Positions 14,400 to 52,775 of a stretch of 52,853 nucleotides of DNA are shown here, one piece after another; positions within the stretch are counted from its first letter, which is position 1; each line of letters begins with the position of its first letter. The notes beneath the pieces are model-generated. The model saw nothing but the letters and a program-made list of their open reading frames with translations. It was not told the origin of the DNA and did no database searches. This DNA is from Terriglobus sp. RCC_193 (GTDB lineage Bacteria > Acidobacteriota > Terriglobia > Terriglobales > Acidobacteriaceae): contig NZ_JBFUPK010000005.1 of assembly GCF_041355105.1 (NCBI RefSeq), positions 1 through 52,853 on the forward strand, read 5' to 3'. A program made the position numbers and the translations under genes.

Positions 14400-18593
<4,194 letters not shown>

Positions 18594-36756: not shown

Positions 36757-36801
36757 CACGTCCCACGCTTCGAAGAGCCGCGTCGAGAACGGCACGAAGT
36801 G
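36757..36801 (-). repeat. 3'-adjacent structured element, copy A (after rpmD)
   Basis: It carries TCGAGAACGGCACGAAGTG (36783-36801, plus strand), eight bases from the rpmD stop, preceded by a GC-rich inverted segment ACGC..GCGT. See the finding on the four-copy family. Confidence 0.6.
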
Positions 36802-36809
36802 TCGAAGCA

Positions 36810-36998
36810 CTAGTCGAGGATGCGAACCAGGTGCGGGATTGCCGCAACCATGCCGCGAACCGACGGTGTGTCCTCGCGCTCCACGATCTGGTTCAGACGC
36901 GTAAAGCCCAGGCCCTTAACCACAAGCTTGTGCTTCACCGGCGTCGCGATCTTCGAGCGGTAGTACTGGATCTTGATCTTGCCCGTGTTTTCTGCCAT
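36810..36998 (-). CDS. rpmD: 50S ribosomal protein L30
   Basis: The predicted protein is 62 residues, normal length: KIKIQYYRSKIATPVKHKLV, VKGLGFTRLNQIVEREDTPS, VRGMVAAIPHLVRIL. L30 is a small 50S protein found between rpsE and rplO, as here. A structured repeat follows its stop codon and a CGTTGCTC repeat precedes its start. Confidence 0.97.
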   Translation of the reverse strand: MAENTGKIKIQYYRSKIATPVKHKLVVKGLGFTRLNQIVEREDTPSVRGMVAAIPHLVRILD

Positions 36999-37002
36999 TG
37001 TC

Positions 37003-37088
37003 TCGTTCCTCTCGTTGCTCGTTGCTCTCGTTGCTCCCGTTTCCGCGGCTCACGAGAGCAAACGCTGGAAACGAGGTAACGAGCAACG
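37003..37088. repeat. CGTTGCTC-type inverted repeat, copy 2 (rpsE-rpmD spacer)
   Basis: Four direct CGTTnCTC-type words at about 37005-37039 face GAGAGCAAACG and GTAACGAGCAACG words at about 37052-37088. The whole 94-base spacer consists of this element. Confidence 0.6.
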
Positions 37089-37092
37089 CGAA

Positions 37093-37599
37093 TTAAAGTT
37101 CGTGTACATCCTTGCCGCGCAGCGCTGCAACCGCAGCCTTGTCACGGAGCTGAATCAGCGCGTCAAACGTGGCCTTGATCACGTTGTGCGGGTTCGCCGT
37201 TCCCAGCGACTTGGTCAAAACGTTCTGCACACCGGCAGAGGTCATGACGGCACGCACAGCGCCACCAGCGATCACGCCGGTACCTTCGGGAGCCGGCTTC
37301 AGCAACACATGACCCGAGCCATAACGGCCCAGCACCTGGTGCGGAATCGATGTCGCGGTCAGGTTCACCTTGTGCAGGTTCTTCTTGGCCGCTTCAATGC
37401 CCTTGCGGATGGCCTGGGGAACTTCCTTGGCCTTGCCGCTGCCGTAACCCACAATGCCCTGATCCGGATCGCCGATTACAACCAGCGCCGCAAACGACAT
37501 ATTCTTACCGCCCTTAACGACCTTGGTCACACGGTTGATCGCGACCACCTGGTCCTTCAGGTTCAGCTTGTTTGCATCAATCTTCTTGCGAATTGCCAT
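37093..37599 (-). CDS. rpsE: 30S ribosomal protein S5
   Basis: The predicted protein is 168 residues. The double-stranded RNA-binding-like domain ([40 protein letters not shown]) and the C-terminal domain ([40 protein letters not shown]) are complete. S5 acts in decoding accuracy at the mRNA entry site. It is 27 bases downstream of rplR. Confidence 0.98.
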
Positions 37600-37626
37600 C
37601 TATAATCCTCTTTCGCTAAACCTGAG

Positions 37627-37992
37627 TTAGAACTCGAGACCGGCTTCACGCGCGGCATCGGCCAGGGCCTTGATGCGGCCGTGATACAGGTAACCACCAC
37701 GATCAAATACAACCTTGGTCACGCCTGCTTCCTTGGCGCGCTCCGCCACCAGCTTGCCCACTTCCTGGGCTGCAGCGATGTTGCCGCCGCTCTTCTTCTC
37801 TTCACCCTTCTTGAGGATGGTGGAAGCCGAAGCCAGCGTGGTGTGCGTGGAGTCGTCGATGACCTGTGCGTAGATGTGGTTGAGCGAACGGAAGATGTTC
37901 AGGCGAGGACGTTCGGTGGTGCCGGCGACCTTCGCACGAACGCGCTTGTGAACGCGCTTCCGGATGACATTGCGCTGCGGTGCAGTAATCAT
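37627..37992 (-). CDS. rplR: 50S ribosomal protein L18
   Basis: The predicted protein is 121 residues. It binds 5S rRNA. The basic N-terminus ([20 protein letters not shown]), the [20 protein letters not shown] strand and the C-terminal [20 protein letters not shown] stretch match the family. It lies between rplF and rpsE. Confidence 0.98.
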
Positions 37993-38093
37993 TTCTTCTT
38001 TCCTTCCCTATCGGCGCAAATGCCCTGCATCTGCGTTCGGTATGGTGAGCGATGGCATCTCGTCCATCGCCTCGGGTTGATGTTTCGTTGGAA

Positions 38094-38116
38094 CCGGCTC
38101 GCTCGAAGCGAGCCGG
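38094..38116 (-). other. Hairpin in the rplF-rplR spacer
   Basis: A perfect 10-bp stem CCGGCTCGCT/AGCGAGCCGG with a 3-base loop (or 9 bp closing UUCGA on the transcribed strand), without a T-run. It adjoins copy B of the 3' element. Confidence 0.5.
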
Positions 38117-38130
38117 CCCATACTCTATCC

Positions 38131-38177
38131 ACCGCCTCGAAAACACGTGCAAAGCACGTCGAGAACGATGCGAAGCA
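38131..38177 (-). repeat. 3'-adjacent structured element, copy B (after rplF)
   Basis: CTCGA (38136-38140), inner hairpin ACGTGC-AAA-GCACGT (38145-38159), TCGAG, then AACGATGCGAAGCA running up to the rplF stop codon at 38178. In this copy the short stem next to the stop reads TGC/GCA where other copies have CAC/GTG. Confidence 0.65.
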
Positions 38178-38717
38178 CTACTTCGAGCCGGTCTTGCCGA
38201 CCTTCTTCTTCAGCTTCTCGTCCGAGTAACGTACGCCCTTGTTCTTGTACGGATCAGGCTTACGCAGCGAACGCATGTCAGCGGCCACCTGGCCAACCTT
38301 CTGGCGGTCGATACCCTCAACCGTCAGGTGCGTCTGCTTCGGATCGATGGTGACGGTAATGCCGGTGGGCAGCGGGAACTCAATCGGGTGGGAGTAGCCG
38401 AGCGTGAATACAACCATGCCCGCGCCCTTCATCTCAGCACGGTAACCGATGCCGACGATGTCCAGTTCCTTCTTCCAGCCGTTGGTCACACCCTCAATGG
38501 CGTTGAACACCAGGGCGCGAGCCAGGCCATGAATGGCCTTCTGCGAATCGTTATCGCGCACAGCGTGCACGAAACCATCCTTCTGCTCCAGGCGGATGCC
38601 GGTGGGCAGAAGTGCATTCGTGGTGCCCTTGGGGCCAGTTACTTCAACGATGTTGCCATTCACCGTGTACTTCACAGTGGTAGCAACAGGAATCGGCTTC
38701 AAACCAATACGTGACAT
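38178..38717 (-). CDS. rplF: 50S ribosomal protein L6
   Basis: The predicted protein is 179 residues. Two repeated L6 domains; the C-terminal signature [23 protein letters not shown] and the middle [20 protein letters not shown] are intact. L6 lies near the factor-binding centre of the 50S subunit. It lies between rpsH and rplR. Confidence 0.98.
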
Positions 38718-38899
38718 TTACTTTTCCTTGCGGCTTGCGAGTCCCGGACTCTGCAACCAGTTAGTCTTGCGAACTAACTACCGGCAGACCGTTCCACTGC
38801 AGCCACCGCAGATCGCTCCGCGGGAACAACTTGTACTGCGAAAATTAAGAACTACATCCAGAGCAACGCTCTGGCCACGATACGGTGCGGTTGTAAGTT

Positions 38900-38938
38900 C
38901 ACGCCGCGAAGAGCGGCGTCGAGAACCGCACGAAGTGC
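38900..38938 (-). repeat. 3'-adjacent structured element, copy C (after rpsH)
   Basis: Inner hairpin ACGCCGC-GAAGA-GCGGCGT (38901-38919) followed by TCGAGAACCGCACGAAGTG (38919-38937), one base from the rpsH stop codon at 38939. Confidence 0.65.
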
Positions 38939-39337
38939 CTACCAGACGTGAGCGAGAACTTCTCCGCCTACGTTTTCCTTGCGAGCGGTGCGGCCCGTCA
39001 TCACACCCTTCGGCGTGGTGAGGATCGAGATACCAAGTCCACCCTGTACGCGGCGGATATCCTGAGCGCCGAGGTACACACGCGAACCAGGCTTGGAGAT
39101 GCGCTTCAGGTCGAGGATGGCGGAGGTGCCTTCGGCGTCGTACTTCAGGTACACGCGCAGGGTGCGGTGGTTCTCTTCCTCAACCGTCTTGTAGTTGGTG
39201 ATATAGCCCTCTTCCTTCAGAATGCGGGCAATCTCAGCCTTCAGGTTCGAGGCAGGAACATCCAGCTTCTGGTGGCGGGCATTGATGGCGTTACGTACGC
39301 GCGTCAGGAAGTCTGCTACTGGGTCGGTCAGGTTCAT
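38939..39337 (-). CDS. rpsH: 30S ribosomal protein S8
   Basis: The predicted protein is 132 residues from MNLTDPVADFLTRVRNAINA at 39337; a 13-residue in-frame extension upstream is spacer. The family ending RVQGGLGISILTTPKGVMTG and the region to the C-terminal EVLAHVW are intact. S8 binds the 16S central domain and in E. coli represses the spc operon by binding near rplE; I did not find a clear mimic of its site here. Confidence 0.98.
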   Translation of the reverse strand: MNLTDPVADFLTRVRNAINARHQKLDVPASNLKAEIARILKEEGYITNYKTVEEENHRTLRVYLKYDAEGTSAILDLKRISKPGSRVYLGAQDIRRVQGGLGISILTTPKGVMTGRTARKENVGGEVLAHVW

Positions 39338-39427
39338 GATGACTCTTCTCTCTACCTCCCGTTCTCTGCGAGCCATGCGCTGGCAGAACTGACGAAGGAT
39401 TTGGTAATCGTTACTCTCGTGGATCGT

Positions 39428-39484
39428 TGCTCCCGCTACTCACGCACCCTGCTCTAACGAGAGCAACAAGAAACGTGAGCAACG
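39428..39484. repeat. CGTTGCTC-type inverted repeat, copy 3 (rpsN-rpsH spacer)
   Basis: CGTTACTCTCG and CGTTGCTCCCG words at about 39410-39438 face CGAGAGCAAC and GTGAGCAACGAGGTAACG at about 39458-39493, giving the same design as the copies at 31514 and 37003. Confidence 0.55.
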
Positions 39485-39498
39485 AGGTAACGCAAGCA

Positions 39499-39684
39499 CT
39501 ACCAGCTGCTCTTTACGACGCCTGGGATCTCGCCCTTGAGTGCAAGGCTACGGAAGCACAGACGGCAGATACCGAACTTGCGCAGAAACGCGCGGGGACG
39601 GCCGCACAACTGGCAACGGTTATGCTGGCGGCACTTAAATTTGGGCTTCTTGGCGTCCTTGACTGCCTTTGCAGTAGTCGACAT
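39499..39684 (-). CDS. rpsN: 30S ribosomal protein S14, zinc-binding type
   Basis: The predicted protein is 61 residues, the short zinc form. Cys24, Cys27, Cys40 and Cys43 ([20 protein letters not shown]) make the zinc ribbon, and [17 protein letters not shown] is the standard ending. It lies between rplE and rpsH. Confidence 0.98.
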
Positions 39685-39708
39685 ATTTTTCTCCGATCCT
39701 TATCTGGG

Positions 39709-40248
39709 CTATGCGCGGAACGGCATGCCGAAGTGCTTGAGGAGGACGCGCGCGCTGTTATCGTCCGCAGCGGTCGTCACGATGGTCACGTTCATGCCCT
39801 TCAGCTTCTCCACCTTCGAATAATCGATTTCGGGGAAGATGAGCTGGTCACGCAGACCGAGCGTGTAGTTGCCGCGGCCGTCGAAGCTCTTCGAAGAAAC
39901 ACCCTTGAAGTCGCGCACGCGGGGAAGAGCCACGCTGATCAGGCGATCCAGGAACTCGTACATTGTCTCGCCGCGCAGGGTAACCATGGCGCCGATCGAC
40001 TGGCCTTCACGCACCTTGAACTGAGCGATGGACTTCTTCGCCTTGGTCAGAACCGGCTTCTGGCCGGTTACGGCTGCCAAATCGCTGACCAGCGGGTCAA
40101 TGATCTTGTTGTTCTGCGTCGCCTCACCGAGGCCCATGTTGATGACGATCTTCTCGATCTTCGGCACTGCCATCACATTCGTGATGCCCAGCTCCTTCTG
40201 AACGGCCGCCTTCAACTCGTTTGCATATTTCTCACGGAGTCGTGCCAC
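39709..40248 (-). CDS. rplE: 50S ribosomal protein L5
   Basis: The predicted protein is 179 residues if translation starts at the GTG at 40248 ([12 protein letters not shown]), which matches the usual L5 length and start; an ATG at 40299 would add 17 residues. The 5S rRNA-binding signature [10 protein letters not shown], the [20 protein letters not shown] stretch and the ending [20 protein letters not shown] are intact. The spacer to rplX (212 bases) is unusually long for this pair, which are normally almost adjacent. Confidence 0.96.
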
Positions 40249-40459
40249 TGTCGTTACTTCGCTTTCTCCACGGTCATCGGATTGGGCTTCGATTCGCATC
40301 ACGGCCCGTATACCGTTTCGTGGGGTGTTCCTGTGATCTGGATTGCTGTCCGCTTGAGAACTTCGCCGGAACGCACCTGGCCCAACATGTGGGGTAGCCC
40401 AGAGAGGTCTTCCAACGAACAGCGCAGGCGCTTGCGCACCTGCTGTTATCAAAAACTGT

Positions 40460-40786
40460 TTACTTCACCTTCGGGTAAGCAATCACTTCGCCGGTCGTCT
40501 TGGCAATGCGCTCACGCTTGCCATCTACCACGCGAATGTTGATCCGAGTCGCCTTACCGTTGCCGTCCACCAGAGCCACGTTGGAGAGGTGAATTGCTGC
40601 TTCCTGCTCCAGAATGCCACCCTTGATGTTCGCCTGCGGATTCGGCTTGACATGCTTCTTGATCATGCCGATGCCCTGCACGAGAACGCGGTTCTTGTCG
40701 GTAACAATGCGCAGAACGCGGCCAGTCTTACCCTTGTCCTTGCCCGCCAGAACAACCACGGTGTCATTCTTCAAAACATGTGCCAT
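40460..40786 (-). CDS. rplX: 50S ribosomal protein L24
   Basis: The predicted protein is 108 residues. The KOW motif region ([20 protein letters not shown]) and [20 protein letters not shown] are intact. L24 starts 50S assembly. AGGAG lies eight bases before the ATG. It normally follows rplN directly; here an opposite-strand gene and a terminator lie between, so rplX must start from its own promoter in 40787-41011. I see only a weak candidate there (TTGTAT, 17 bases, TAAAGT). Confidence 0.98.
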
Positions 40787-41011
40787 TTTCAGTACTCCTA
40801 TCCCGCGCCGTGGTCCCGGACACAGGCCTCTGCGAGTACCTCCGCAGGTCGAGGGGATGCAGTTGGACCAAACTTGTCTACTTTACGCGAATTTACGCCT
40901 CAATACAAGCTTTTGGGCATGAAATTAGATCTACCATCATTCCGTTGCAGCATCAGACGATGGAATTCGTCTATCTGTGAGATTCTCAACTCCTCGCAGG
41001 GAGATTCCGCA

Positions 41012-41911
41012 ATGAGGTTCAGGGTTTCAACTCGAGCGTTCTCCGGCTTCGCGATCTGTTTGATCATGCTGTCCGCGCATGCGCAGGCTATCGCCACGCC
41101 GGGCCCCACCTTCGAATCTGCCTCCGTGAAACCGGCTCCGCCTGAAGCCCCGATGGAAGGCCTGGGCTTCATGATCCCGCTCGGCCGCGCGCAAACACCA
41201 CACGGCCTGCTCACGATGACCGGCCCGCTCCCGCCGCTTATCGTGTTCGCCTACGACGTTAAAGATGAAGTGGAAGCCCGCGCCATGCGGTCGCGCCTGC
41301 CCGAGTGGGCACGAAGCCAGAAGTACACCATCGTCGCCCGCCCACCGGAAAACGCGCAGAGCATGGAAGACATTCGCCTCATGCTGCGCAACCTGCTAGA
41401 AGACCGTTTCGCCATCAAGGCTCATCGCGAAAGCCACACCGCCAACGTCAACCTGCTGAACGTGGCGAAGCCTGGAACAACCGGCCCAAACCTGCAGCCC
41501 CACACAGCCGCCTGCATAAAACCCGGCACACCGGCACCAGAAACACAACCCGGCAAACCAGCTCCACAAACCTGCGGCCTGCAGATTAGCCGCAAAGAGG
41601 GTGGCATGATGCACGTCAGCATGATCGACGTCTCCATGCCCGAAGCCTGCACCCTCTTCGGTGGCCTGGGAGGCGTTCTCGGCGGTCGCGGCATGGATCG
41701 CATGGTGGACGCAACCGGCCTCACCGGCCACTACGACATGACGCTCGACTTCCAGATCGACGAAGCCAATGCACCACAGACCAACAGCGATGGCGACGGC
41801 CCGACCTTCACCGGCGCGCTGGAAAAACAACTTGGCCTGAAACTGAAAAAAGGCTCAGGACAGATCGAGGATCTCATCGTCGACCGCATTGCCCAGCCCA
41901 CGCCAGATTAA
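41012..41911 (+). CDS. TIGR03435-family exported protein (acidobacterial), function unknown
   Basis: The predicted protein is 299 residues from the ATG at 41012 with GGGAG eight bases upstream; the open frame reaches further up over rplX but without support. A signal peptide ends near AHAQA (about 25). The family hallmarks are present: PTFESASVKPAPPE at the mature N-terminus, LLTMTGPLPPLIVFAYDV, RLMLRNLLEDRFAIKAHRES, VDATGLTGHYDMTLDF and the ending ALEKQLGLKLKKGSGQIEDL. TIGR03435 proteins are abundant in Acidobacteria, and no function is established. A central Pro-rich insertion carries two cysteines. It lies on the plus strand between rplN and rplX, interrupting the ribosomal operon. Confidence 0.93.
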   Translation: MRFRVSTRAFSGFAICLIMLSAHAQAIATPGPTFESASVKPAPPEAPMEGLGFMIPLGRAQTPHGLLTMTGPLPPLIVFAYDVKDEVEARAMRSRLPEWARSQKYTIVARPPENAQSMEDIRLMLRNLLEDRFAIKAHRESHTANVNLLNVAKPGTTGPNLQPHTAACIKPGTPAPETQPGKPAPQTCGLQISRKEGGMMHVSMIDVSMPEACTLFGGLGGVLGGRGMDRMVDATGLTGHYDMTLDFQIDEANAPQTNSDGDGPTFTGALEKQLGLKLKKGSGQIEDLIVDRIAQPTPD

Positions 41912-41920
41912 CTTTGGAAG

Positions 41921-42133
41921 TTATTCACGCGGTCCGCTCAACCGAAACACCACAATTCCAACCGCAATCGTGATGATCAGTGCAATCGGCGCAGCCAGCA
42001 TCGCCAAACCGATATCCGTCTGCGCCCGATTGCCGCCTCCATGCGAAACCCACCGGGTCATCACGATCATCGCGCCATAGAAACTGACAATCAAAGTCAG
42101 GCCACAAATCAGAAGCGGCACCATACCACGCAT
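41921..42133 (-). CDS. Small two-helix membrane protein, hypothetical
   Basis: The predicted protein is 70 residues (start at 42133 or 42124). Two hydrophobic segments (about 4-24, VPLLICGLTLIVSFYGAMIV, and about 43-65, LAMLAAPIALIITIAVGIVV) are joined by a polar loop with a Gly-rich stretch, and the end is RLSGPRE. I know no family. It is tail-to-tail with the TIGR03435 gene (9 bases) and lies after the rplN terminator. There is no strong ribosome-binding site, so the call is tentative; the membrane pattern is the main support. Confidence 0.5.
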   Translation of the reverse strand: MRGMVPLLICGLTLIVSFYGAMIVMTRWVSHGGGNRAQTDIGLAMLAAPIALIITIAVGIVVFRLSGPRE

Positions 42134-42183
42134 ACAAAAAGCATACGCTTCGTAGCAATGGCGCCTGGAATCGGAAAGGCCCA

Positions 42184-42222
42184 CAAAAGCAAAACGGAGA
42201 GCGCCCGAAGGCACTCCCCGCT
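42184..42222 (-). terminator. Terminator after rplN, inside the ribosomal cluster
   Basis: An 11-bp stem with G-U pairs (CGGGGAGTGCC/GGCGCTCTCCG; plus-strand arms 42195-42205 and 42210-42220) closes a UUCG loop and is followed by TTTTGCTTTTGTGG on the minus strand. It begins 27 bases after the rplN stop. It should end the S10/early spc transcript here. Confidence 0.85.
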
Positions 42223-42248
42223 TTGAATGGTTTTCGTGGAACGAAAGC

Positions 42249-42620
42249 TTAGATAACTTCCGGAGCCAGCGAAACGATCTTCAGGAACTTCTTGTCGCGC
42301 AGCTCGCGGGCCACGGGTCCGAATACACGGGTTCCCACCGGCTCGCCTGCGTCGTTGATCACGACGGCTGCGTTCTGATCAAAGCGGATGTAGGTTCCGT
42401 CCTTGCGGCGCGCTTCCTTGCGGGTGCGCACGATCACGGCCTTCACAACCTTGCCCTTCTTCACGGTGCCGTCCGGCGAAGCTTCCTTCACCGCGGCCGT
42501 CACCACATCGCCCAGACCAGCCTTCTTACCCAGACCGCCACCGAGCGGCAGGATGACCTGCAGACGGCGTGCGCCAGAGTTATCGGCTACGTCCAGAATC
42601 GTACGCATTTGTACGGACAT
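42249..42620 (-). CDS. rplN: 50S ribosomal protein L14
   Basis: The predicted protein is 123 residues, normal length: [60 protein letters not shown] and [21 protein letters not shown]14 lies at the subunit interface with L19. It is now the last gene of the upstream ribosomal unit because a terminator and unrelated genes follow. Confidence 0.99.
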
Positions 42621-42808
42621 TGCTTCTTCTCCTGACCTTCGAGGCTTCTGGAGCCCAAGGCCGGGGGCTATCTCGCCCCAGTGAAATCCACTTGATGGTC
42701 GCGGCCGCGGAGCGGATCGCTGAACAACCTCTTCAACGATCGTCGCGCTGGACGCGTCATGCCCATACTGTTACCGAACGATGCCGGTAACGGGCAAACT
42801 CTTCTATC

Positions 42809-43126
42809 TTACTTCGCAGCCGGAGTCGCTTCGCTCAGGCTCGAGCGGCGAACGATCTCTTCGAGGTTCCAGCGCTTCAGCTTGCTGGTGGGACGGGTCT
42901 CGCGGATGCGGACCTGATCGCCCACGCGGGCCGAGTTCTGCTCATCATGCGCATAGAACTTCTTGTTCGACTTCACGATGCGCTTGTACTTCGGGTGCGC
43001 CTTGCGCATTTCCACCGAAACCACGATCGTCTTGTCCATCTTGGTCGAGGTCACCAGGCCGATCTTCTCGGTGCGGTGGCCAATCTTCTCTGCCGTAGCA
43101 GTAGTCGTAGCAGTCGTCTCAGCCAT
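42809..43126 (-). CDS. rpsQ: 30S ribosomal protein S17
   Basis: The predicted protein is 105 residues, somewhat longer than the usual 80-90: a Thr/Ala-rich N-terminal stretch of about 17 residues precedes the OB-fold core ([40 protein letters not shown]). It starts three bases after the rpmC stop. A hairpin GTTACCG/CGGTAAC (42770-42791) nested in GCCC/GGGC follows its stop codon. Confidence 0.97.
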
Positions 43127-43128
43127 CG

Positions 43129-43383
43129 TTATGCCTTCTTCGCCTTACGGGTCTTCTTCGCGGGCGCAGCCGACTCCGTCGGAGCCGTCGCCTGGCCAAG
43201 CTCACGCTGGCGCGCCACAGTCTTAATGCGCGCGATGTCTTTCTTCAGTTCGCGCAGCTTGTTCACGCCTGAGGCATCGCCCAGGCTCTTCTGGAAGCGA
43301 ACGCGGAAGAGCTGCTCGCCCGCCTGGGCCTGCTGCTCCTTCAGTTCGCTGTCCGTAAATTCGCGGATCTTGGTCAGTTCCAT
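43129..43383 (-). CDS. rpmC: 50S ribosomal protein L29
   Basis: The predicted protein is 84 residues. The helical hairpin core ([54 protein letters not shown]) is followed by an Ala/Lys-rich tail of about 17 residues. L29 surrounds the peptide exit tunnel. It is between rplP and rpsQ. Confidence 0.97.
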
Positions 43384-43426
43384 TTCAATCTCTCATTCAG
43401 CGTCTGCATTCAAAGACGCTATGCAG

Positions 43427-43873
43427 TTACGCGGCTGCAGCAGCCTTGGGGTCAATCGCCTTGATGTTCGGACGCTGCACGAAGACGGTACGCAGCGGGA
43501 GCTTGTTCGATGCAAGCCGCATGGCTTCCTTCGCAACTTCCACGGAAACGCCTTCCATCTCGAAGAGCAGCTTGCCAGGGCGGACAACCGCAACCCAGTG
43601 ATCCAGCGCACCCTTACCAGAACCCATTCGAACTTCTGCGGGCTTCTTGGTGATCGGCTTGTCCGGGAAGATCCGGAGCCACACCTTACCACCACGCTTG
43701 ATGTAACGGGTCATTGCGATACGGCTTGCTTCGATCTGACGATCGGTGATGTAACCGCACTCCACGACCTTCAGGCCGTAGTCGCCAAACGCAAGCTCGG
43801 AACCACGCCATGCCTTACCGCGCATCTTGCCCTTTTGCTGCTTGCGGTACTTAACCTTCTTGGGCTGCAACAT
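43427..43873 (-). CDS. rplP: 50S ribosomal protein L16
   Basis: The predicted protein is 148 residues: [81 protein letters not shown]16 positions the A-site tRNA. It lies between rpsC and rpmC in canonical order. Confidence 0.98.
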
Positions 43874-43997
43874 AACTGCACTCTTTCCCGCTGCGGCCTT
43901 GGCGTCACTTACCGAATAAGTGGCCCAGTCTCCGCGCGCCTTCTGTTCTTAGTGTTAGGCGGGGCTGATTGCTCAACCCCGCAATGATGCTCGCTAC

Positions 43998-44666: not shown

Positions 44667-44780
44667 AACTTAATCCCTTCACTTCGCGTCCGGAGAACAT
44701 TAGTTCCGAACTTACTCAGTACTTACTCGCCGCATCAACTTCTCGGCGATGCCGGGCCGGCTTACAGCCCGGCCAGAAAT

Positions 44781-45302: not shown

Positions 45303-45356
45303 ATCTCTTCCTTATCGCGCTCCGGCAACACCGGAGGCTGACGTACTTAATCTGAC

Positions 45357-45638
45357 TTAGCGGCCCTTGGCCGTCTCAGCCTTCGCTGCGTGGCCCTTGA
45401 AGGTACGCGTTGCGGCAAACTCGCCCAGCTTGTGTCCCACCATGTTCTCCGTCACGTAGACCGGGATGAACTTCTTACCGTTGTGCACGGCAATGGTGTG
45501 GCCCACGAACTCCGGGAAGATGGTGGAACGACGCGACCAAGTCTTAACGACTTCCTTCTTGTTCGCGGTGTTCAGCACCTCAACCTTCGTCATCAGGTGG
45601 GCGTCGATAAATGGGCCCTTCTTTGTAGAACGTGCCAT
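45357..45638 (-). CDS. rpsS: 30S ribosomal protein S19
   Basis: The predicted protein is 93 residues, normal: [61 protein letters not shown]19 forms part of the 30S head with S13. It lies 21 bases after rplB and before rplV. Confidence 0.98.
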
Positions 45639-45659
45639 GTTTTCCTCTCGCTCCCTGAA

Positions 45660-46484
45660 TTACTTGCTGCGGCGGTTCACGATGAACACATCGGTCCGCT
45701 TGTTGTTACGGGTCTTGTAGCCACGTGTCGGCTGTCCCCACGGCGTAACAGGATGACGTCCGCCTGAGGTCTTACCTTCACCACCACCGTGCGGGTGATC
45801 CACAGGGTTCATCGAGACACCACGGTTTGTCGGACGGATACCGCGCCAGCGGCTTGCACCGGCCTTACCCAGCGAGATGTTTTCGTGGTCCGTGTTGCCT
45901 ACCTGGCCAACCGTTGCCATGCAGTCCACCAGCACGCGGCGGGTTTCGCTGGAGGGCAGCTTCAGCAGGGCGTAGTCGCCTTCCTTGGCAACCAACTGCG
46001 CGGACGAACCGGCAGAACGCACCATCTGCGCACCCTTACCCGGACGGAGTTCCACGTTGTGAACCGTCGTACCGGCAGGGATGTTGCGCAGCGGCAATGC
46101 ATTGCCAACCAGAATGTCAGCGTCGGGACCACTGGTCACCGTCATGCCAACCTTCAGGCCAACCGGCTGAATGATGTAGCGCTTCTCGCCGTCCTTGTAG
46201 CTGATCAGAGCAATGCGCGAGGAGCGGTTCGGATCGTATTCGATCGTCGCAACCGTTCCGGGTACACCGAACTTGTCGCGCTTGAAGTCGATAATACGAA
46301 GCTTCTTCTTGTGGCCACCACCGTGATGACGCATCGTCATCTTACCGGAGGAGTTACGTCCGCCTGTGCGCTGCTTGGTTGCCAGCAGCGGCTTGTACGG
46401 CTCGTTCGTCGTGATGTCCGAGTTCACCAGCTTCGACTGGAAGCGCAGTGTCGGCGTAATCGGTCGGAATGTCTTAATCGGCAT
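45660..46484 (-). CDS. rplB: 50S ribosomal protein L2
   Basis: The predicted protein is 274 residues, full length. It contains the L2 signatures [40 protein letters not shown] and the conserved [20 protein letters not shown] near the peptidyl transferase centre. L2 is needed for subunit association. It lies between rplW and rpsS. Confidence 0.99.
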
Positions 46485-46577
46485 TTCCCTAACTTCCTTG
46501 CCATCCGCATAGCTAGTCAGGCGCGCGGATTGGGGTTACTTCGTGTACTCAAGCCATCAAGTTCACTTACTGCGCGA

Positions 46578-46620
46578 GGTCGGCTGACTTGCTCACTCGC
46601 TGACTTGCTGACCTGTTTCG
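46578..46620. repeat. CTGACTTGCT short repeats in the rplW-rplB spacer
   Basis: GGCTGACTTGCT and CGCTGACTTGCTGACCT are direct repeats, and the ends AGGTC/GACCT are complementary, so the unit could form a weak hairpin. This is a third type of low-complexity spacer in the cluster. Confidence 0.45.
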
Positions 46621-46624
46621 CTCC

Positions 46625-46918
46625 TTAGAGCGAGTTGACATACTCCGGCATCTTCGAGCCCGGAACCAGGCGCACATACGCCTTCTTCCAGTCAGGCTTG
46701 AAGCCGGTAAAGCGACCGCGGCGGCGCTCCTTGCCCAGGTAGTTGGCGGTACGAACCGCGGCAACCTTAACCTTGAACAGGTTTTCCACTGCATGCTTCA
46801 CTTCATTCTTCGTCGCGCCAGCAGCAACCTCAAACACCAGAGTGCCTTCGGTCTCCTTGGCGATCATGCCCTTTTCCGTAATCAGCGGGCGGCGAATGGT
46901 GGTGTAAACAGTTGCCAT
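46625..46918 (-). CDS. rplW: 50S ribosomal protein L23
   Basis: The predicted protein is 97 residues: TIRRPLITEKGMIAKETEGT, VFEVAAGATKNEVKHAVENL, VRTANYLGKERRRGRFTGFK. L23 at the tunnel exit docks trigger factor and SRP. Its start codon overlaps the rplD stop by one base, indicating translational coupling. Confidence 0.98.
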   Translation of the reverse strand: MATVYTTIRRPLITEKGMIAKETEGTLVFEVAAGATKNEVKHAVENLFKVKVAAVRTANYLGKERRRGRFTGFKPDWKKAYVRLVPGSKMPEYVNSL

Positions 46919-47592
46919 TACGCAACCTCCTTCTTCGCAGCCAGCTTACGGCGCGACACATTCTTCTTCAGGACTTCCTGCAGAGCCTCAATGGCATCCT
47001 GCGAGAAGATCGCGTGCTCATAGCGCAGCAGGTCGTAGGGGTGAACCTCCGAGCTCAGCACCAGCTCCACACCGTCCAGGTTGCGCGAACCCAGAAACAG
47101 GTTGTCGGTCAGCTTCTGACCGCTCTCGACCAGCAGCGCGGTCTTCTTCGCTTCCAGCTTGTCCAGCGCCTGACGGTACAGCTTGGTCTTCGGCTCGGCA
47201 ACTTCCAGCGAGGAAACCACGGTCAGCTTGCCGTCCTGCAGCTTCGAAGCAAGAGCCGAGCTCAATGCACCAAGGAGCTTCTTGCGCGGGAACGCATACT
47301 CGTACGAGCGGGGCTGAGGTCCGTGAACCGTACCACCATGACGCCAGATAGGCGAACGCACCGAACCCACACGGGCACGACCGGTTCCCTTCTGCTTCCA
47401 CAGCTTCTTGCCGGAACCCGACACGAGCTTCTTGTTCTTGGTGGCGGCGGTTCCCTGACGGAGAGCAGCGCGGTAGTGCTTCACCGACTCCCAGAGCAGG
47501 GCCTCATTCACTTCGACGCCGAATACTTCGTCCGCAAGCTCCAGCTCGCTGACTTTCTTCCCGCCGAGATCGACTACGTTAATCTTTGCCAT
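46918..47592 (-). CDS. rplD: 50S ribosomal protein L4
   Basis: The predicted protein is 224 residues. The exit-tunnel loop region (KKLWKQKGTGRARVGSVRSP, WRHGGTVHGPQPRSYEYAFP) is intact. In E. coli L4 represses the S10 operon through the leader; the leader here (48897-49120) shows no structure I recognise as that site. It is coupled to rplW. Confidence 0.98.
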   Translation of the reverse strand: MAKINVVDLGGKKVSELELADEVFGVEVNEALLWESVKHYRAALRQGTAATKNKKLVSGSGKKLWKQKGTGRARVGSVRSPIWRHGGTVHGPQPRSYEYAFPRKKLLGALSSALASKLQDGKLTVVSSLEVAEPKTKLYRQALDKLEAKKTALLVESGQKLTDNLFLGSRNLDGVELVLSSEVHPYDLLRYEHAIFSQDAIEALQEVLKKNVSRRKLAAKKEVA

Positions 47593-47776
47593 CTTGCTTC
47601 CTCTGGCCCTCGTTCTATTGCGAGCGCCCTAAGTTCAATTTGTCATCCCGCTGTCGACTTACTCATTCCGACCAAGTCCGCAGACGATGCGATGTACTAC
47701 AAAAACAACTTGAAACCACTTACAGCGGAAGGCGCCCAGAACCGCGCCGAAGGCGCATGTCGCTGGACGCGCAGTC

Positions 47777-48511
47777 CTACTTCTTCTTACCCGAAGCCTT
47801 CTTCGAAGCCTTCAGCGGGTCAACCGTGCCCGAACCGGCGAATCCACGACGCTCACGCGGCGGGTTCTTCGACTTCGAGATCAGGATCACGCCATCACGG
47901 GGTCCCGGAACCGCACCCTCAACCAGGAGGAGGTTGTCCTCAAGGTCAATACCGCGGATGCGCAGGTTGCGAACCGTGATCTGCGCGTCACCGTGGTGAC
48001 CCGGCATACGCTGGCCCGGGAATACGCGCGACGGGAACGACGATGCACCAATCGAACCCTGAATCTGGAACATGTGGCCGTGCGACTTGGGACCGCCGCC
48101 GAAGCCGTGGCGGCGAACAACGCCAGCAAAACCACGACCCTTTGACTTACCGATGATGTCCACAAAGCGCTCGCCGTCGAACAGGTCAACCAGAATACGG
48201 TCGCCAGCCTTCACAGCGCCTTCGCCTTCGTTGTCACCCGTGGTGGACTCAATGCCCACCTCGCGGATCTCACGCACCGGCGGAGCATCGCTCTTCGCCA
48301 GGTGACCAGCCATACCCTTGGTCAGCTTGGAGGCCTTCACGAACTCCACCAGACCAATCTGGGCGGCGTCGTAGCCGTCTGTCTTCTGCGTCTTCACCTG
48401 GGTGACAACGCAGGGGCCAACCTTGATTACGGTGACCGGGTGCACTACGCCGGCGTCGTCAAACACCTGCGTCATACCAATCTTCTTGCCGAGCAAACCT
48501 GTTACTGCCAT
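47777..48511 (-). CDS. rplC: 50S ribosomal protein L3
   Basis: The predicted protein is 244 residues, longer than the usual 205-215, partly through a loop rich in Glu/Gly (about 75-95, [16 protein letters not shown]) and a C-terminal Lys-rich end. The signature [20 protein letters not shown] and [20 protein letters not shown], with the Gln methylation region, is conserved. L3 organises the peptidyl transferase centre. It is the second gene after rpsJ. Confidence 0.98.
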
Positions 48512-48575
48512 GTGATTCTCTCCTCATCATGCCCGCGCACGCAGCGGGGCACTGCCGGTTTATTGAAATTTGGTG

Positions 48576-48896
48576 TTACCTGGTTACGGTCTTGATTTCC
48601 ACGTCCACGCCAGCGGGCAGGTCGAGCTTCATCAGCGCGTCCACCGTCTGCTGCGTCGGTTCCAGGATGTCGATCAGCCGCTTATGCGTACGGATTTCGA
48701 ACGCCTCACGCGACTTCTTGTCGACGTGCGGGGAACGGAGCACGCAGTACTTGTTCTTCATCGTGGGAAGGGGAATCGGACCCGCAACCTGTGCTCCGGT
48801 GCGCTTGGCGGTCTCAACGATCTCGCCGGTCGACGTGTCCAGGACACGATAGTCATACGCCTTCAGGCGAATGCGAATTCTCTGCTGTGCAGCCAT
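48576..48896 (-). CDS. rpsJ: 30S ribosomal protein S10
   Basis: The predicted protein is 106 residues: [61 protein letters not shown]10 is part of the 30S head and also a NusE-type antitermination partner. It is the first gene of the S10 operon here; tuf, which often precedes it directly, is 3.9 kb further up with two unrelated genes between. Confidence 0.99.
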
Positions 48897-49120
48897 GTGT
48901 TCGAACTCTCTCTACGCAAAGATCTACAACTGCGGCTGGCCTTCAGACCAACCTTTTGAGTGTAACCGAAACACGACGCCTTCTCCACAGAAAAGTGCGG
49001 TGAAACGGCAAAAAATGTCAGGAACCACCGCGCCGGACCCCGCTACCCCATGTTGAAAGGAGCCCCAGGTCCCGAACCAGCCGCCAATACCGCAAGCGAC
49101 CTTCACGCAGCAGACAACTG

Positions 49121-49149
49121 ATCATAGCAGCATTTCTGCCAAAGATTAA
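49121..49149 (-). promoter_or_regulatory. Candidate promoter of the S10 operon
   Basis: -10 TATGAT (49126-49121, five of six consensus bases) with a 17-base spacer to TTAATC (49149-49144, weak -35). It lies just after the GH92 terminator, where a promoter is needed. Confidence 0.4.
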
Positions 49150-49165
49150 CCAACGTCCACCAACA

Positions 49166-49211
49166 ACAAGACAAAGAAAACGGCATCTGCACCATTCCCA
49201 GTGCAGATGCC
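49166..49211 (-). terminator. Terminator of the GH92 gene
   Basis: A perfect 11-bp stem GGCATCTGCAC/GTGCAGATGCC (49182-49192 with 49201-49211) with an 8-base loop is followed on the minus strand by GTTTTCTTTGTCTTG. It lies 42 bases after the stop codon. Confidence 0.8.
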
Positions 49212-49253
49212 CTTTCCGACTTTCAGAAATCATTACGCCTTCAAGCCAAATTG

Positions 49254-51509
49254 CTATGCTTTCACGGTAAACCGCAGCGTCGACGCCTTCACCAGATCGC
49301 CATGCGCAATCACATCGCCTGCGTGCGCCTTGCCGTTCACTGCAAGGGCCGCCCGATACGGCTTTGCCGCAGGATCACCCACAGCCTCTACCGTGAAGCT
49401 GCTTCCCTTCAGTCCGCGGCGGACCTCCGCCTTCTGCCACATCGGCGAACCCAGCATCCACTCCGGTTTGCCCGGGCACAACGTGTACAGCCCCAGCGAC
49501 GCCAGCACGTACCAAGCGGCCATCGAGCCGGTATCCTCATCGCCGCTGAAGTTCTCCGGCGAATACAACTCATTCAGCACCTTGCGCACCCACTTCTGGG
49601 TCAGGTCCGGGCGACCGCCCACCGTGAACATCCACAGGATGTGGTGCGACGGCTGATTCGAATGCGCGTACTGCCCAAAGCGCACCGCAGCCATCTCGCT
49701 CATCTCGTGAATCTCCTGGTGATACACGCCCACTTCGAAACGTGGCTCCTGCTCCACACACTTCACCAGTTCCGCAACGAACGTATCCTTGCCACCAAAG
49801 GCCTCGTTCATCATGGCCTCAGGCTCATGCGGAACAGACCACCGATGCTGCCACGCCCCGCCTTCCACATAGGGCGATCCCCACTGATACTGCCGGAACT
49901 CCGGCGCCCACTTGCCATCCGCATTCTTGCCACGGAAGAACTTCACCTGCGGGTCCCACATCATGCGCCAGTTCTTCGAACGCTTTGCAAAGAACGCAGC
50001 GTCTTCGGAGTGTCCCAGCTTCGCCGCAATCTGCCCGATGCAGAAGTCACCATAGTGCGCGTCAAGCGACTCCACGCAAGCCTGTTCCACTTCATCGTTC
50101 GGCACGTAACCAAGCCGCTGATACGAAGCCGAACCGCGACGTCCGTAGCCCTTCTCCGGATCGCCTACCTGCGTCGCATGTTTCTTCAACAGTTGATACG
50201 CGGCTTCGCGATCGAAGCCCGGGATGTCCTTCACCACTGCATCGCCAAACAGCGAATCGATCAACGACCCCGTCATGCATGCGCGATAACCCGGGCACGG
50301 AAATTGCGGCATCCATCCGCCTTCGGTGCCAGCGTTCACCCAGCTTTGCAGAATTTCGCCCAGCCGCTCCGGATACAGCAGCGTCATCATGGGATACCAC
50401 GCACGATAGACATCCCAGTAGCCGTGGTCCGCATACATCACACCAGGTGTCAGCTTGCTGGTGTACGGGCTCATATGAACGGCCTTACCGTCGGCGTCAA
50501 TCTCATGCCAGATGCGCGGAAACAGCAGCGTGCGATACAGGCATGAGTAGAACGTGCGCATCTGTTCTTTACTTGCGCCATGAATCACAACGGCACGGAG
50601 ATGCTCTTCCCACATAGCCTTCGTCTTCGCTTGCACCGCATCAAATCCGTTCGATCCAACCTCCTCCTGCAGCGTGTGCTCTGCCTGTTCAAACGAGATG
50701 AAGGAATGTGCAATCGCGACCTCAACCTTCGCTGCTTTCAAATGCAATACGCCAACCACGCTGCCGTTGTTATTGCGGCCTGTGGCATTGCTCTTCAGTG
50801 CCTTCTGCTCAAACGAGGCACCGGTCGCACCACGCAAAACGTAGTACGTTGCAAACCCTTCCGGTGTACCGCCCGCACTTGCAGAGGTCTTCCATCGCAA
50901 CGTGGAAGAAGCTGCGTCCCACTGAAATTCCGCGCCCTTTTCCGGCACGTCAATCACCAGCGATACGTCATCACCCAGTCGGCTCGCTGCACGCAGTACC
51001 GCACCACGACAGGTCGGTGTCAGCTCCGCATCGATACAGTAGCGCAGCAGGTTCATCCTGAAGCCATACGGATGCGCCACCAGCTCGTCTGGACGATACG
51101 AAGTAGCACGCGCTGACGCACGCACATCCGGCTCGCCTGTCACCGGCAGAATTGTGGTGAAGCCATAATCGCTGAGCCAGGGGCTCAACTGGTGCGTTAG
51201 GCGGAAACCCTGAATTCGCTGATCCATCGGTGAGAACATCCATGGCGATCCGCTGCGCGACTCCAGCGTCCAATGCGCCATACCAAACGGTTCCGCGGCA
51301 ATCGGCAGCGTATTGCCGCGAGAAAACTGCGGGTTCGAGTTCGTCCCCTGCAACACATTCACGTAATCGCTCAATACAGCGGTATGCACCTGCGTTGCAG
51401 ATGTAGCACTATGCTTCTGCGCAGCGGCATCCACAGTCAGAGCAGGCGTACCGGCAGCTACGGCCAGAGCGCCGGTGCCTTTTAGAAAATCGCGTCGTGT
51501 TGCAGCCAT
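49254..51509 (-). CDS. Tat-exported GH92-family alpha-mannosidase-like glycosidase
   Basis: The predicted protein is 751 residues. The N-terminus MAATRRDFLKGTGALAV is a twin-arginine signal. A GH92 N-terminal beta-sandwich (about 45-270, with SRGNTLPIAAEPFGMAHWT and QGFRLTHQLSPWLSDYG) and the (alpha/alpha)6 catalytic domain follow: YADHGYWDVYRAWYPMMTLL, NAGTEGGWMPQFPCPG, and the active-site region FSGDEDTGSMAAWYVLASLG near residue 650. GH92 enzymes are calcium-dependent exo-alpha-mannosidases. The motif usually reads GN(D/E)DxGQMSAW; here it is GDEDTGSMAAW, so the substrate may differ. It is a single-gene unit with its own terminator, between tuf and rpsJ. Confidence 0.92.
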   Translation of the reverse strand: MAATRRDFLKGTGALAVAAGTPALTVDAAAQKHSATSATQVHTAVLSDYVNVLQGTNSNPQFSRGNTLPIAAEPFGMAHWTLESRSGSPWMFSPMDQRIQGFRLTHQLSPWLSDYGFTTILPVTGEPDVRASARATSYRPDELVAHPYGFRMNLLRYCIDAELTPTCRGAVLRAASRLGDDVSLVIDVPEKGAEFQWDAASSTLRWKTSASAGGTPEGFATYYVLRGATGASFEQKALKSNATGRNNNGSVVGVLHLKAAKVEVAIAHSFISFEQAEHTLQEEVGSNGFDAVQAKTKAMWEEHLRAVVIHGASKEQMRTFYSCLYRTLLFPRIWHEIDADGKAVHMSPYTSKLTPGVMYADHGYWDVYRAWYPMMTLLYPERLGEILQSWVNAGTEGGWMPQFPCPGYRACMTGSLIDSLFGDAVVKDIPGFDREAAYQLLKKHATQVGDPEKGYGRRGSASYQRLGYVPNDEVEQACVESLDAHYGDFCIGQIAAKLGHSEDAAFFAKRSKNWRMMWDPQVKFFRGKNADGKWAPEFRQYQWGSPYVEGGAWQHRWSVPHEPEAMMNEAFGGKDTFVAELVKCVEQEPRFEVGVYHQEIHEMSEMAAVRFGQYAHSNQPSHHILWMFTVGGRPDLTQKWVRKVLNELYSPENFSGDEDTGSMAAWYVLASLGLYTLCPGKPEWMLGSPMWQKAEVRRGLKGSSFTVEAVGDPAAKPYRAALAVNGKAHAGDVIAHGDLVKASTLRFTVKA

Positions 51510-51678
51510 GTGGGTAGGTCCTTACCGGAAATCCGCGCACAACATGCCAGATACACATTGCGCACGCATCAAGCAGTCTATCCGCAACGGCACTGCAGGA
51601 TGTGTGAGCTGGTGATTCTCCCCGGTGAATTTGGGGATTTCACCTTTGCAAACAAATCGCGACGCGTCCAGTTCCACA

Positions 51679-51712
51679 CATAGAAAAGCCCGGTCCATTG
51701 GATCGGGCTTTG
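51679..51712 (-). terminator. Terminator of the YcbK-like gene
   Basis: A 12-bp stem with one G-T pair (AAAGCCCGATCC/GGACCGGGCTTT on the minus strand; plus arms 51685-51696 and 51701-51712) is followed by TCTATGTG with a T-rich start. It lies 22 bases after the stop codon. Confidence 0.75.
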
Positions 51713-51733
51713 GCTAACTTGATGACTTCGAGT

Positions 51734-52459
51734 TTAGGTACGTGAGTGCCGACGCTTGCGTCTGGAAGCATGCGGGGCATACGTCCACTTGCGGACTGGC
51801 CCCGTATCGACATGCACAAATTGACTCTTCGGGTAGTAGCCAACACCACCTGCGTCGAGTGATAACGCTGCATCGCGCAGACGCGCTGCGGGAACGCCTT
51901 CCACACGCATGTCAACAGCCTTTGCTTCAATGTGCTGCGAGTGCTCCGCTGCATTCGTTGTTCCGCTGGCACGCAACGCATCATTCGTTTCCTGCGAACG
52001 ATAGGCCGAAAGCACATTGATCACGCCGCCAGCCTTACCCACCTTCGCCATCACCGTATGCAGAACGTCAAAGGTGCGCGGATCAAACGTGGTGACTTCC
52101 TGGTTGTGGCTGTCACGGAGAAAGTGGTTCAGCCTGTCCAGCGCTTCGGGGATATAGGTATCCCCCACGCGATACACCACGTCGATCATCTCGCCGCCCT
52201 GATGGGCAAACTTCAGTTCGTACTTCTGGCCATCAGAGGGTGCGGAGTCGTCACCCTCGATCGGCAGCAGGCCCAGACCAGGTAGAGTAGCATTCACGAA
52301 AGCATGAGCTACGGCGCGAATGCGCGGGTGCTTGCGCGCTTCAAACTTGCGGGCACTGGCGGATGGCGCGGTCATCCCGAGCGCCACAAGGACGCCGAAA
52401 GCGGTAACTGCGCGAGCAGACACAAGGCCGAGATTCAACGAAGAGAAACGCAGTGGCAC
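51734..52459 (-). CDS. Exported YcbK/DUF882 (M15-like) peptidase
   Basis: The predicted protein is 241 residues from a GTG at 52459 with AGGAG 11 bases upstream, giving a signal peptide (MPLRFSSLNLGLVSARAVTA up to PSASA); an ATG at 52576 would add 39 residues with no clear ribosome-binding site. The domain (about 110-235) has the M15-type zinc motifs: INVLSAYRSQETND, HSQHIEAKAVDM (His and Asp seven apart) and FVHVDTG near the end. Such proteins are probably peptidoglycan peptidases in the periplasm. It ends in a basic tail (RRKRRHSRT). It lies between tuf and the GH92 gene, each separated by a terminator. Confidence 0.85.
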   Translation of the reverse strand: MPLRFSSLNLGLVSARAVTAFGVLVALGMTAPSASARKFEARKHPRIRAVAHAFVNATLPGLGLLPIEGDDSAPSDGQKYELKFAHQGGEMIDVVYRVGDTYIPEALDRLNHFLRDSHNQEVTTFDPRTFDVLHTVMAKVGKAGGVINVLSAYRSQETNDALRASGTTNAAEHSQHIEAKAVDMRVEGVPAARLRDAALSLDAGGVGYYPKSQFVHVDTGPVRKWTYAPHASRRKRRHSRT

Positions 52460-52664
52460 AGCGACAGAAGCTCCTGGGTTCGATTCGCAGCGCCGATCTG
52501 GTGATCGTCTTCGTTGTGTTCCGTAACCGCCAGAATCACAGGAAGCTTTACCCAAGTTCAGCCCTAGGACTCCCATAGTATGCCAATTGGGGTGATCCCG
52601 GCACAATACTTGTGTCACAATTCGCGCCGTGTTAGCCCCGGCAGCGAAGAAGAGTTTTGGCTGT

Positions 52665-52706
52665 AGAGCAACAAAAAGACCCGATCCATAGAGGACCGGG
52701 TCTTTC
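52665..52706 (-). terminator. Terminator of tuf
   Basis: A 12-bp stem with one mismatch (AAAGACCCGGTCC/GGATCGGGTCTTT on the minus strand; plus arms 52675-52687 and 52693-52705) is followed by TTTTTGTTGC. It ends the tuf transcript, so the genes toward rpsJ are not read from it. Confidence 0.85.
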
Positions 52707-52726
52707 TTGTTACTTGGCCCTTCATT

Positions 52727-52775
52727 CCGCCTCGAACCGCGTCGCGCGAGCGACATCGAGAACGGCACGAAGTGG
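52727..52775 (-). repeat. 3'-adjacent structured element, copy D (after tuf)
   Basis: CTCGA (52731-52735), inner hairpin GTCGC-GCGA-GCGAC (52741-52754), then TCGAGAACGGCACGAAGTG (52756-52774), one base from the tuf stop codon. It shares all parts with copies A-C. Confidence 0.65.

Follow-up and report, generated by a model that had tools for sequence, protein, structure and literature searches.

A two-hairpin palindromic repeat that abuts stop codons in Terriglobus and other Acidobacteriaceae

Introduction

Short repetitive extragenic palindromic (REP) sequences are said to have been described as mRNA stabilisers by Newbury in 1987. In passages of Di Nocera and colleagues (PMC3733652), two classes, the GTAG and the CGTC REPs, lie predominantly downstream of open reading frames (ORFs), and the GTAG class frequently contributes the TAG stop codon itself. 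Ribosomes can be stalled by REPs that lie no further than 15 nt from a stop, according to a passage of Murashko and colleagues (PMC12306157) that cites its ref. 17, and stem-loops concentrate within 50 bp past stops in the genomes treated in an excerpt of PMC1590033. The present account concerns a repeat of two hairpins that occurs four times, each time close behind a stop codon, in a stretch of 52,853 nucleotides from Terriglobus sp. RCC_193 (contig NZ_JBFUPK010000005.1, assembly GCF_041355105.1). This stretch, below called the window, is one whole contig of a genome (G000) of 4.22 Mb and nine contigs. Terriglobus belongs to the Acidobacteriaceae, which are soil bacteria. Judged from its sequence, the element resembles known bacterial palindromic repeats and yet is a distinct type. 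No published description of it was found in the searched titles and abstracts of the open-licence PMC literature, which does not by itself prove its absence from print; excerpts of PMC2817692, PMC5009743 and PMC7509114 hold nothing on it.

Four copies in the window

A sequence-only reading of the window had placed four copies of a structured element after tuf, rpsH, rplF and rpmD. These positions were confirmed on the gene strand, with the upstream genes recognised through their C-termini, and the distances to the stop codon are 8 nt for copy A, 0 for B, 1 for C and 1 for D, the letters standing for the copies after rpmD, rplF, rpsH and tuf, respectively. All four lie on the minus strand, in sense orientation to the gene that each one follows. 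A covariance model (CM), trained on 16 copies with B included and A, C and D excluded, finds exactly these four significant copies in the window (E 2.7e-13 to 4.6e-6), the next match having an E of 0.23. The copies and their host genes are as follows.

36765..36803, minus strand: copy A, 8 nt past the rpmD stop TAG at 36810-36812; CM E 3.6e-7, outside the training set; hairpin 1 CAC-TTC-GTG at 36801-36793, linker GTTCTCGA at 36790-36783, hairpin 2 imperfect and reaching 36765
38145..38179, minus strand: copy B, directly past the rplF stop TAG at 38178-38180; CM E 2.7e-13, in the training set; hairpin 1 TGC-TTC-GCA, linker GTTCTCGA at 38166-38159, hairpin 2 ACGTGC-TTT-GCACGT
38901..38939, minus strand: copy C, directly past the rpsH stop TAG at 38939-38941; CM E 1.7e-9, outside the training set; hairpin 1 GCAC-TTC-GTGC, linker GTTCTCGA at 38926-38919, hairpin 2 ACGCCGC-TCTTC-GCGGCGT
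52742..52776, minus strand: copy D, directly past the tuf stop TAA at 52776-52778; CM E 4.6e-6, outside the training set; hairpin 1 CAC-TTC-GTG, linker GTTCTCGA at 52763-52756, hairpin 2 TGTCGC-TCGC-GCGACG
36810..36998, minus strand: rpmD (L30), host of copy A; ORF reading from MAENTGKIKIQ, named from that reading
38178..38717, minus strand: rplF (L6), host of copy B; identified as an ORF and by reading, and used as protein query in 19 genomes of the genus
38939..39376, minus strand: rpsH (S8), host of copy C; ORF with C-terminus GGEVLAHVW, named from reading
52776..52853, minus strand: 3' end of tuf (EF-Tu), host of copy D; C-terminus RTVGAGAIAEIVK, the gene being cut by the contig end

Copy A is preceded by a partial additional hairpin-1 unit, TGCTTCGA, and in copy B the first base of hairpin 1 is the G of the rplF stop TAG. 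A plus-strand 19-mer had been thought common to all four copies; it is complete in A and D (19/19 each), stands at 18/19 in C and is shared only in part by B (14/19). With up to 3 mismatches it has 3 matches in the window against 0.01 by chance. Rfam 15 has no family at gathering score anywhere in the window, and the five matches at E <= 1 on 36700-39000 are all sub-threshold.

Architecture and covariation

On the gene strand the unit consists of hairpin 1 (typically GYAC-TTC-GTRC), one base, the linker GTTCTCGA and hairpin 2, the last often made of an ACG-stem, a loop such as TTC, TTT or TAC, and a stem-CGT. The stems measure about 3-5 bp in hairpin 1 and 4-7 bp in hairpin 2, and the octamer GUUCUCGA between them is near-constant. 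Pairing was followed copy by copy in five genomes of the genus, which hold 128 exact-pattern copies (31 in G000, 35 in G031, 35 in G166, 17 in G201 and 10 in G202). With at least 3 hairpin-1 pairs, 115 of these were kept; two of the 13 dropped, L202 and L203 in G201, adjoin stops. Hairpin 1 has four pairs in 107/115 copies, against a mean of 77 and a maximum of 85 in 500 arm swaps. Hairpin 2, unparsable in 23-24 of the 115, has a stem of at least 5 in 64/92 copies, against a mean of 30 and a maximum of 39 in 100 swaps; its loop is of 3 nt in 70 of the 92 parsed copies and reads TTC on the gene strand in 46. The 16-copy alignment, which leans towards the structure since its members were picked for equal length, pairs in 97.5% of its cells and holds 20 double-change cells, against 5.2 when shuffled and 0-3 when slid, while further pair types in it are not above the shuffles (9 against 9.0). 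That the structure covaries is thus shown both by arm swaps in five genomes and by double changes in the 16 copies, and the change in the mini-stem of copy B, from CAC/GTG to TGC/GCA, is compensatory, as had been proposed. An outer CTCGA/TCGAG pair pointed out earlier is real in copies B and D and is no feature of the family: a partner pentamer within 45 nt occurs in 4/115 copies and a control pentamer in 6/115.

Taken by themselves, model positions 20-35, which cover hairpin 2, find 19 genome sites with an identical score of 19.5 bits, e.g. G000:C1:429983-429998; going by these equal-scoring sites, the hairpin-2 module occurs separately too.

Placement at stop codons

Across the five genomes, 63 of the 115 copies directly follow a sense stop codon (offsets -1 to +3), against about 3.6%, or about 4 copies, expected from sampled genome sequence. 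The offsets are -1 in 22 copies, 0 in 30, +1 in 7, +2 in 3 and +3 in 1. The count is 58 when five doubtful ORFs of 43-68 codons are left out, and 53 when ORFs of at least 80 codons are required; all but one of the 58 have the start of hairpin 1 between offsets -1 and +1. Placement is also strongly polar: 43/91 parsed copies have a sense stop beside hairpin 1, and 4/91 have an antisense stop beside hairpin 2. The adjoining stop is TAG in 47, TAA in 10 and TGA in 6 of the 63 copies (45, 10 and 3 of the 58); among 405 sampled genes of G000 the usage is TGA 151, TAA 145 and TAG 109. An extra pair formed by the base before the four-base arm was considered as a source of the TAG preference and rejected (24/63 stop-abutting copies, 23/52 others). 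Copies that abut no stop are second tandem units, follow a partial hairpin-1 unit (often itself post-stop), lie within longer repeats or lie elsewhere. Short hairpins directly past all stops were not seen as a general rule of the genome in 405 sampled genes. The enrichment just after stops for which the sequence-only reading had called is therefore present in the five genomes (63 or, strictly, 58 of 115 against about 4), and the outcome that it had named as contrary, a lack of stop bias and of covariation, did not occur there.

Two further candidates were dismissed. An outer stem round hairpin 2, competing with hairpin 1 as a switch, is striking in several spc-operon copies, such as GTGCGGTT/AACCGCAC in copy C; it was ruled out as a family trait, stems of at least 6 occurring in 4/53 stop-abutting copies against a mean of 2.0 and a maximum of 5 with swapped downstream sequence. 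Readthrough or recoding was rejected on the ground that the element's frame differs among copies, as judged by eye.

Comparison with described repeats

The element resembles the GTAG REPs, which passages of PMC3733652 describe as short dispersed palindromes, mostly 3' of ORFs, often touching TAG and probably transcribed. Stop adjacency as such is not new, because GTAG REPs are already described at TAG stops in these passages, and the element shares their position downstream of ORFs (63/115 copies after a stop, 58 strictly). Unlike GTAG REPs, it has no unpaired GTAG tag: G precedes TAG in 12/32 TAG-adjacent copies, and copies away from stops mostly have other letters at the tag position (by eye). 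Instead of a single palindrome with a stem of 5-13 bp, it has two hairpins and an 8-nt linker. Its tandem copies seen here all run in one direction, while most REP dimers are head-to-head (PMC3733652, in part). The association of GTAG REPs with REP-associated tyrosine transposases (RAYTs) of the Y1 type has no counterpart in G000, where none of the five Y1 transposase (Y1_Tnp) loci has the TTCTCGA core within 1.5 kb flanks, and a Y1 link was rejected on this basis. Acidobacterial transposases flanked by terminal inverted repeats (TIR-flanked tyrosine transposases, TIRYTs), known from the same phylum in a passage of PMC3733652, differ in the same manner, as the Y1 transposases of G000 lack TTCTCGA in their flanks. 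At L054 and L056, Y1 transposase genes have other short palindromes upstream, such as GGGGCTTTAGCCCC (by eye).

CGTC REPs, as excerpted from PMC3733652, are likewise short palindromes near 3' ends with no dedicated transposase reported; they have one stem of 8-9 bp, a loop of 4-5 nt and mostly a CCA-like tail, whereas the element has two stems and 3-nt loops. By stem and loop lengths it falls outside the CGTC definition, which also includes an unpaired CGTC tag. As the GTAG, single-palindrome, transposase-link and CGTC features all failed as far as tested, it was assigned to neither REP superfamily, although by analogy it may work like one. The stop-proximal REPs of E. coli offer a parallel in position, since there a hairpin directly past the stop is reported to affect the terminating ribosome or mRNA decay (a passage of PMC12306157); their sequence is unrelated, they belong to another phylum, and the element is known here from sequence alone. 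Intrinsic terminators, defined by a GC hairpin plus a U-tract, differ as well, only 7/53 copies qualifying in a loose scan.

Host genes and taxonomic spread

The hosts in G000, recognised by Pfam and C-terminal reading, include the core genes rpmD, rplF, rpsH, tuf, glnA, ffh, fabH, fabF, gyrB, guaA, der and dnaK. The others encode an MFS protein, a metallophosphatase, a pyridoxal-phosphate (PLP) enzyme, a short-chain dehydrogenase, a CDP-alcohol phosphatidyltransferase and one protein without a Pfam match. Core genes thus make up 12/18 hosts against 4/40 random genes of the same genome (TrmD, L19, PurC, TruB; Fisher p 2e-5), with the caveat that this classing was made post hoc, after the genes were known, and that rpmD, 8 nt from its stop, is counted among the 18. 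Further hosts in other genomes are rpsN, dnaA, dnaB, rrf, rpsU, rpoC and def, as well as tldD, yqeY and clearly non-core genes.

In G000 the pattern TTCGNNNNGTTCTCGA has 31 matches against 1 for the reversed pattern, and the CM has at least 43 matches at E <= 0.01, a lower bound as 150 of 3530 candidates were scored. Across the genus (19 genomes), individual genomes have between 0 and 35 pattern matches, and the counts exceed 5 only in G000, G031, G166, G201 and G202; in the low-copy genomes they are 1-5, near those of the reversed control (0-3, strands summed). An exact 23-mer recurs in eight stretches of named genomes, assigned to Edaphobacter, Granulicella or an Acidobacteriaceae bacterium. 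Four of these eight loci carry the element past one same rpoC C-terminus; L084 lies after a solute-binding protein, L088 has the same C-terminal reading as L084, and L086 follows no stop. In a phylum-wide draw, the exact 18-base pattern was met in 4/149 genomes, all within the family, and in 0/132 genomes outside it, a null from which more diverged relatives would escape. Of 17 single pattern matches in other genera of the family, 3 are real elements after stops, 13 have 0-2 hairpin-1 pairs, and 1 has three pairs and no adjoining stop. As far as searched, then, the element is family-specific by its sequence.

Orthologous sites

The element recurs at orthologous stops, and does so patchily. The rplF region was matched in 17/19 genomes of the genus, not all loci extending to rpsN or rpmD. 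In the spc operon the CM finds the element after rpsN in 4 genomes, rpsH in 6, rplF in 5 and rpmD in 3, seven genomes in total, three weak matches (E 0.014 to 0.036) being left out. Copy A has orthologous sites in G166 and G031, copy B in G200, G201, G202 and G208, and copy C in G031, G166, G200, G201 and G202, with a divergent one in G208 (by eye). Of these 18 sites, 13 keep the exact linker, and the stems are changed yet mostly paired: after rplF, the hairpin-1 arms are GTGC/GCAT in G000, GTGC/GCAC in G208 and GCCC/GGGC in G200, with one mismatch each in G202 and G201. G166 and G031 have another palindrome in the element's place behind rplF, which suggests a loss because G201, G202, G200 and G208 have the element there. 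At ffh it is present in G000 and G166 and absent from G031 and six other genomes.

In nine genomes of another genus (g34) the CM has 8 matches at E <= 0.01, spread over four of them. Five of the eight are strong (E <= 2e-6), come from three genomes and lie directly after def (3) and rpoC (2, in two genomes); the remaining three are weak (E >= 0.001) and, by eye, lie after no stop. Such exact placement behind core-gene stops at so low a copy number is difficult to attribute to neutral spread alone.

Repeat traffic and terminator context

Direct tandem copies and partial hairpin-1 duplications are signs of mobility. A composite repeat of several hundred bp is common to L001, L003, L006, L007, L008, L043, L046, L047, L269 and L270. 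At L007, L043 and L047 its left edge is hairpin 1, and the seven other loci share about 200 nt more upstream. Two of the three hairpin-1-edged loci stand directly after stops, those of der and of a metallophosphatase gene, and the metallophosphatase orthologues in sister genomes have the element without the composite repeat (by eye). Tandems, partial duplications and composite edges together imply that the element participates in the traffic of repeats. The hairpin-1 arm also appears partly homogenised by genome, GTAC occurring in 16/30 copies of G000, 16/32 of G031, 14/30 of G166, 0/15 of G201 and 0/8 of G202.

A separate terminator-like site follows 19/53 stop-abutting copies, against 17/401 sampled genes at the same distance; by eye, such sites lie within about 150 nt past the element at glnA, ffh, fabH, guaA, fabF and gyrB. 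Because these separate sites follow it, and because in the spc operon it is placed between cistrons, the element is not itself a usual terminator. Another palindrome, CCCACATCTCGATTCTGAGATGTGGG, lies at about 14340-14385 of the window (minus strand), past the rpoC stop at 14400-14402, and is lacking at the same place in the sister genome G031; palindromes similar to it appear near other copies of the element.

Leader candidates in the same operon

Just upstream of rplR (L18), at 37993-38051 on the minus strand, lies a leader conserved in the genus (loci L091-L107), with the layout CCGAACG-[covarying hairpin]-CGCNNNUAGG. In it, 6/11 predicted pairs have double changes (12 of 17 extracted sequences folded). 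It resembles part of 5S rRNA, the ligand of L18, and is a candidate autoregulatory leader. Close upstream of rplF, at about 38718-38810 on the minus strand, the motif GGCTGCAGTGGAACG ... GACTCGCAAGCC, with its first half in 17/17 loci of the genus, is possibly a further ribosomal-protein leader.

Discussion

The element is read here as a REP-like palindromic repeat of Acidobacteriaceae-type bacteria whose stop-abutting subset is maintained as RNA hairpins at 3' ends, a reading to which we would give an even chance. Post-stop copies would be transcribed in sense, as the start of the 3' untranslated region or as intercistronic spacer. A ribosome decoding the stop codon would run into hairpin 1 and open it; once the ribosome departs, hairpins 1 and 2 would close right behind the reading frame. 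Closed, they would bar 3'-to-5' exonucleases, and perhaps sliding ribosomes, from the coding region, and the element probably guards the gene's end in the mRNA in this way. In operons such as rpsN-rpsH-rplF-rplR it would separate cistrons, at transcript ends it would stand between stop codon and terminator, and the repeat would occasionally spread by a copying process. An RNA structure at 3' ends, as the sequence-only reading had it, agrees with an element that is structured, covarying, sense-oriented, post-stop and often behind core genes, and fits less well with about half of the copies lying elsewhere and with patchiness among relatives. A role in stabilising, processing or recycling the message, which it also proposed, is putative, and so is high expression of the hosts, which are known here by gene identity. 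Its other suggestion, a mobile repeat targeting 3' ends, finds support in the repeat signs and the stop adjacency, although about half of the copies are not at stops.

Several observations weigh against maintenance as RNA hairpins. Of the 115 copies, 52 do not abut a stop (57 without the five doubtful ORFs), nor do 6 of the 9 model-only copies among the 30 best of G000, and some copies lie at the left edge of, or within, longer composite repeats. At individual genes the element is often lacking: it is found at ffh in 2/9 genomes with a readable gene end, out of 18 loci; at tuf in 2/19 copies of relatives with a readable flank, one paralogue each in G166 and G201; and at rpoC in 0/14 loci of the genus (that of the window included, one partly N) and 0/9 further relatives, by eye. 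Six of the nine g34 genomes have no strong match. The rpsH elements are identical in G000 and G201, while those of G031 and G166 differ, though both genomes are seemingly nearer to G000 by ffh protein identity. Hairpin 1 is weak (folded as RNA, with five pairs, it reaches -3.6 to -5.6 kcal/mol), and the same pairing would be expected from a palindrome acting at the DNA level. The constancy of the linker is independent evidence at the 18 model-found sites only, since the counted copies were selected by an exact linker. The TTC loop of hairpin 2 reads GAA on the opposite strand; as GAA is a very stable DNA triloop, a DNA hairpin is conceivable.

A purely selfish REP-like palindrome, copying itself through a single-stranded DNA hairpin intermediate or by recombination, inserting or surviving best near stops and having no function as RNA, would explain the patchiness at orthologous stops, the direct tandem arrays, the composite repeat that starts from hairpin 1 at L007, L043 and L047, and the hairpin-1 arm partly homogenised by genome; published REPs are likewise found near 3' ends, with GTAG REPs often supplying TAG (PMC3733652, in part). 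It sits less easily with the polarity and the core-gene bias, the placement after def and rpoC where a genome has no more than one or two strong copies, the compensatory changes at orthologous sites and the lack of a link to the five Y1 transposases of G000, and is considered possible but rather unlikely. The precise start of hairpin 1 behind the stop, in 57 of 58 copies, would also suit a translational brake, in which ribosomes would be held up by the hairpins shortly ahead of termination, so that the upstream gene has a lower output, as E. coli REPs nearer than 16 nt to the stop are reported to stall ribosomes (a passage of PMC12306157). By this analogy a brake is conceivable, but it would be unexpected for hosts such as EF-Tu, ribosomal proteins, RpoC and DnaK, and hairpin 1 is short; it is judged improbable.

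An intrinsic terminator or attenuator would be in keeping with GC-rich hairpins past stops, and in 7/53 copies a terminator-like call lies 12-60 nt from the hairpin-1 loop. The other 46 have no such call, copies in the window are internal to the spc operon, separating rpsH, rplF and rplR, and separate terminator-like hairpins stand further downstream, which leaves this reading very improbable indeed. A bolder version of maintenance as RNA is a stop-anchored device: the ribosome would melt hairpin 1, and refolding upon its release would display the near-invariant GUUCUCGA, flanked by the two hairpins, to an RNA-binding partner specific to the family. Core-gene messages (tuf, ribosomal-protein genes, rpoC, gyrB, dnaK, def, rrf) would thereby share one 3'-end regulon. 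This version is offered as a long shot, slightly behind the translational brake.

If the element is only mobile, what is documented here is an unusually precise and polar placement of a repeat at gene ends. If it is active as RNA, close relatives would offer a ready-made comparison between core genes that carry it and core genes that lack it, sometimes even among tuf paralogues, and the role of stop-proximal palindromes in mRNA decay and translation termination could be tested directly in a phylum remote from that of E. coli.

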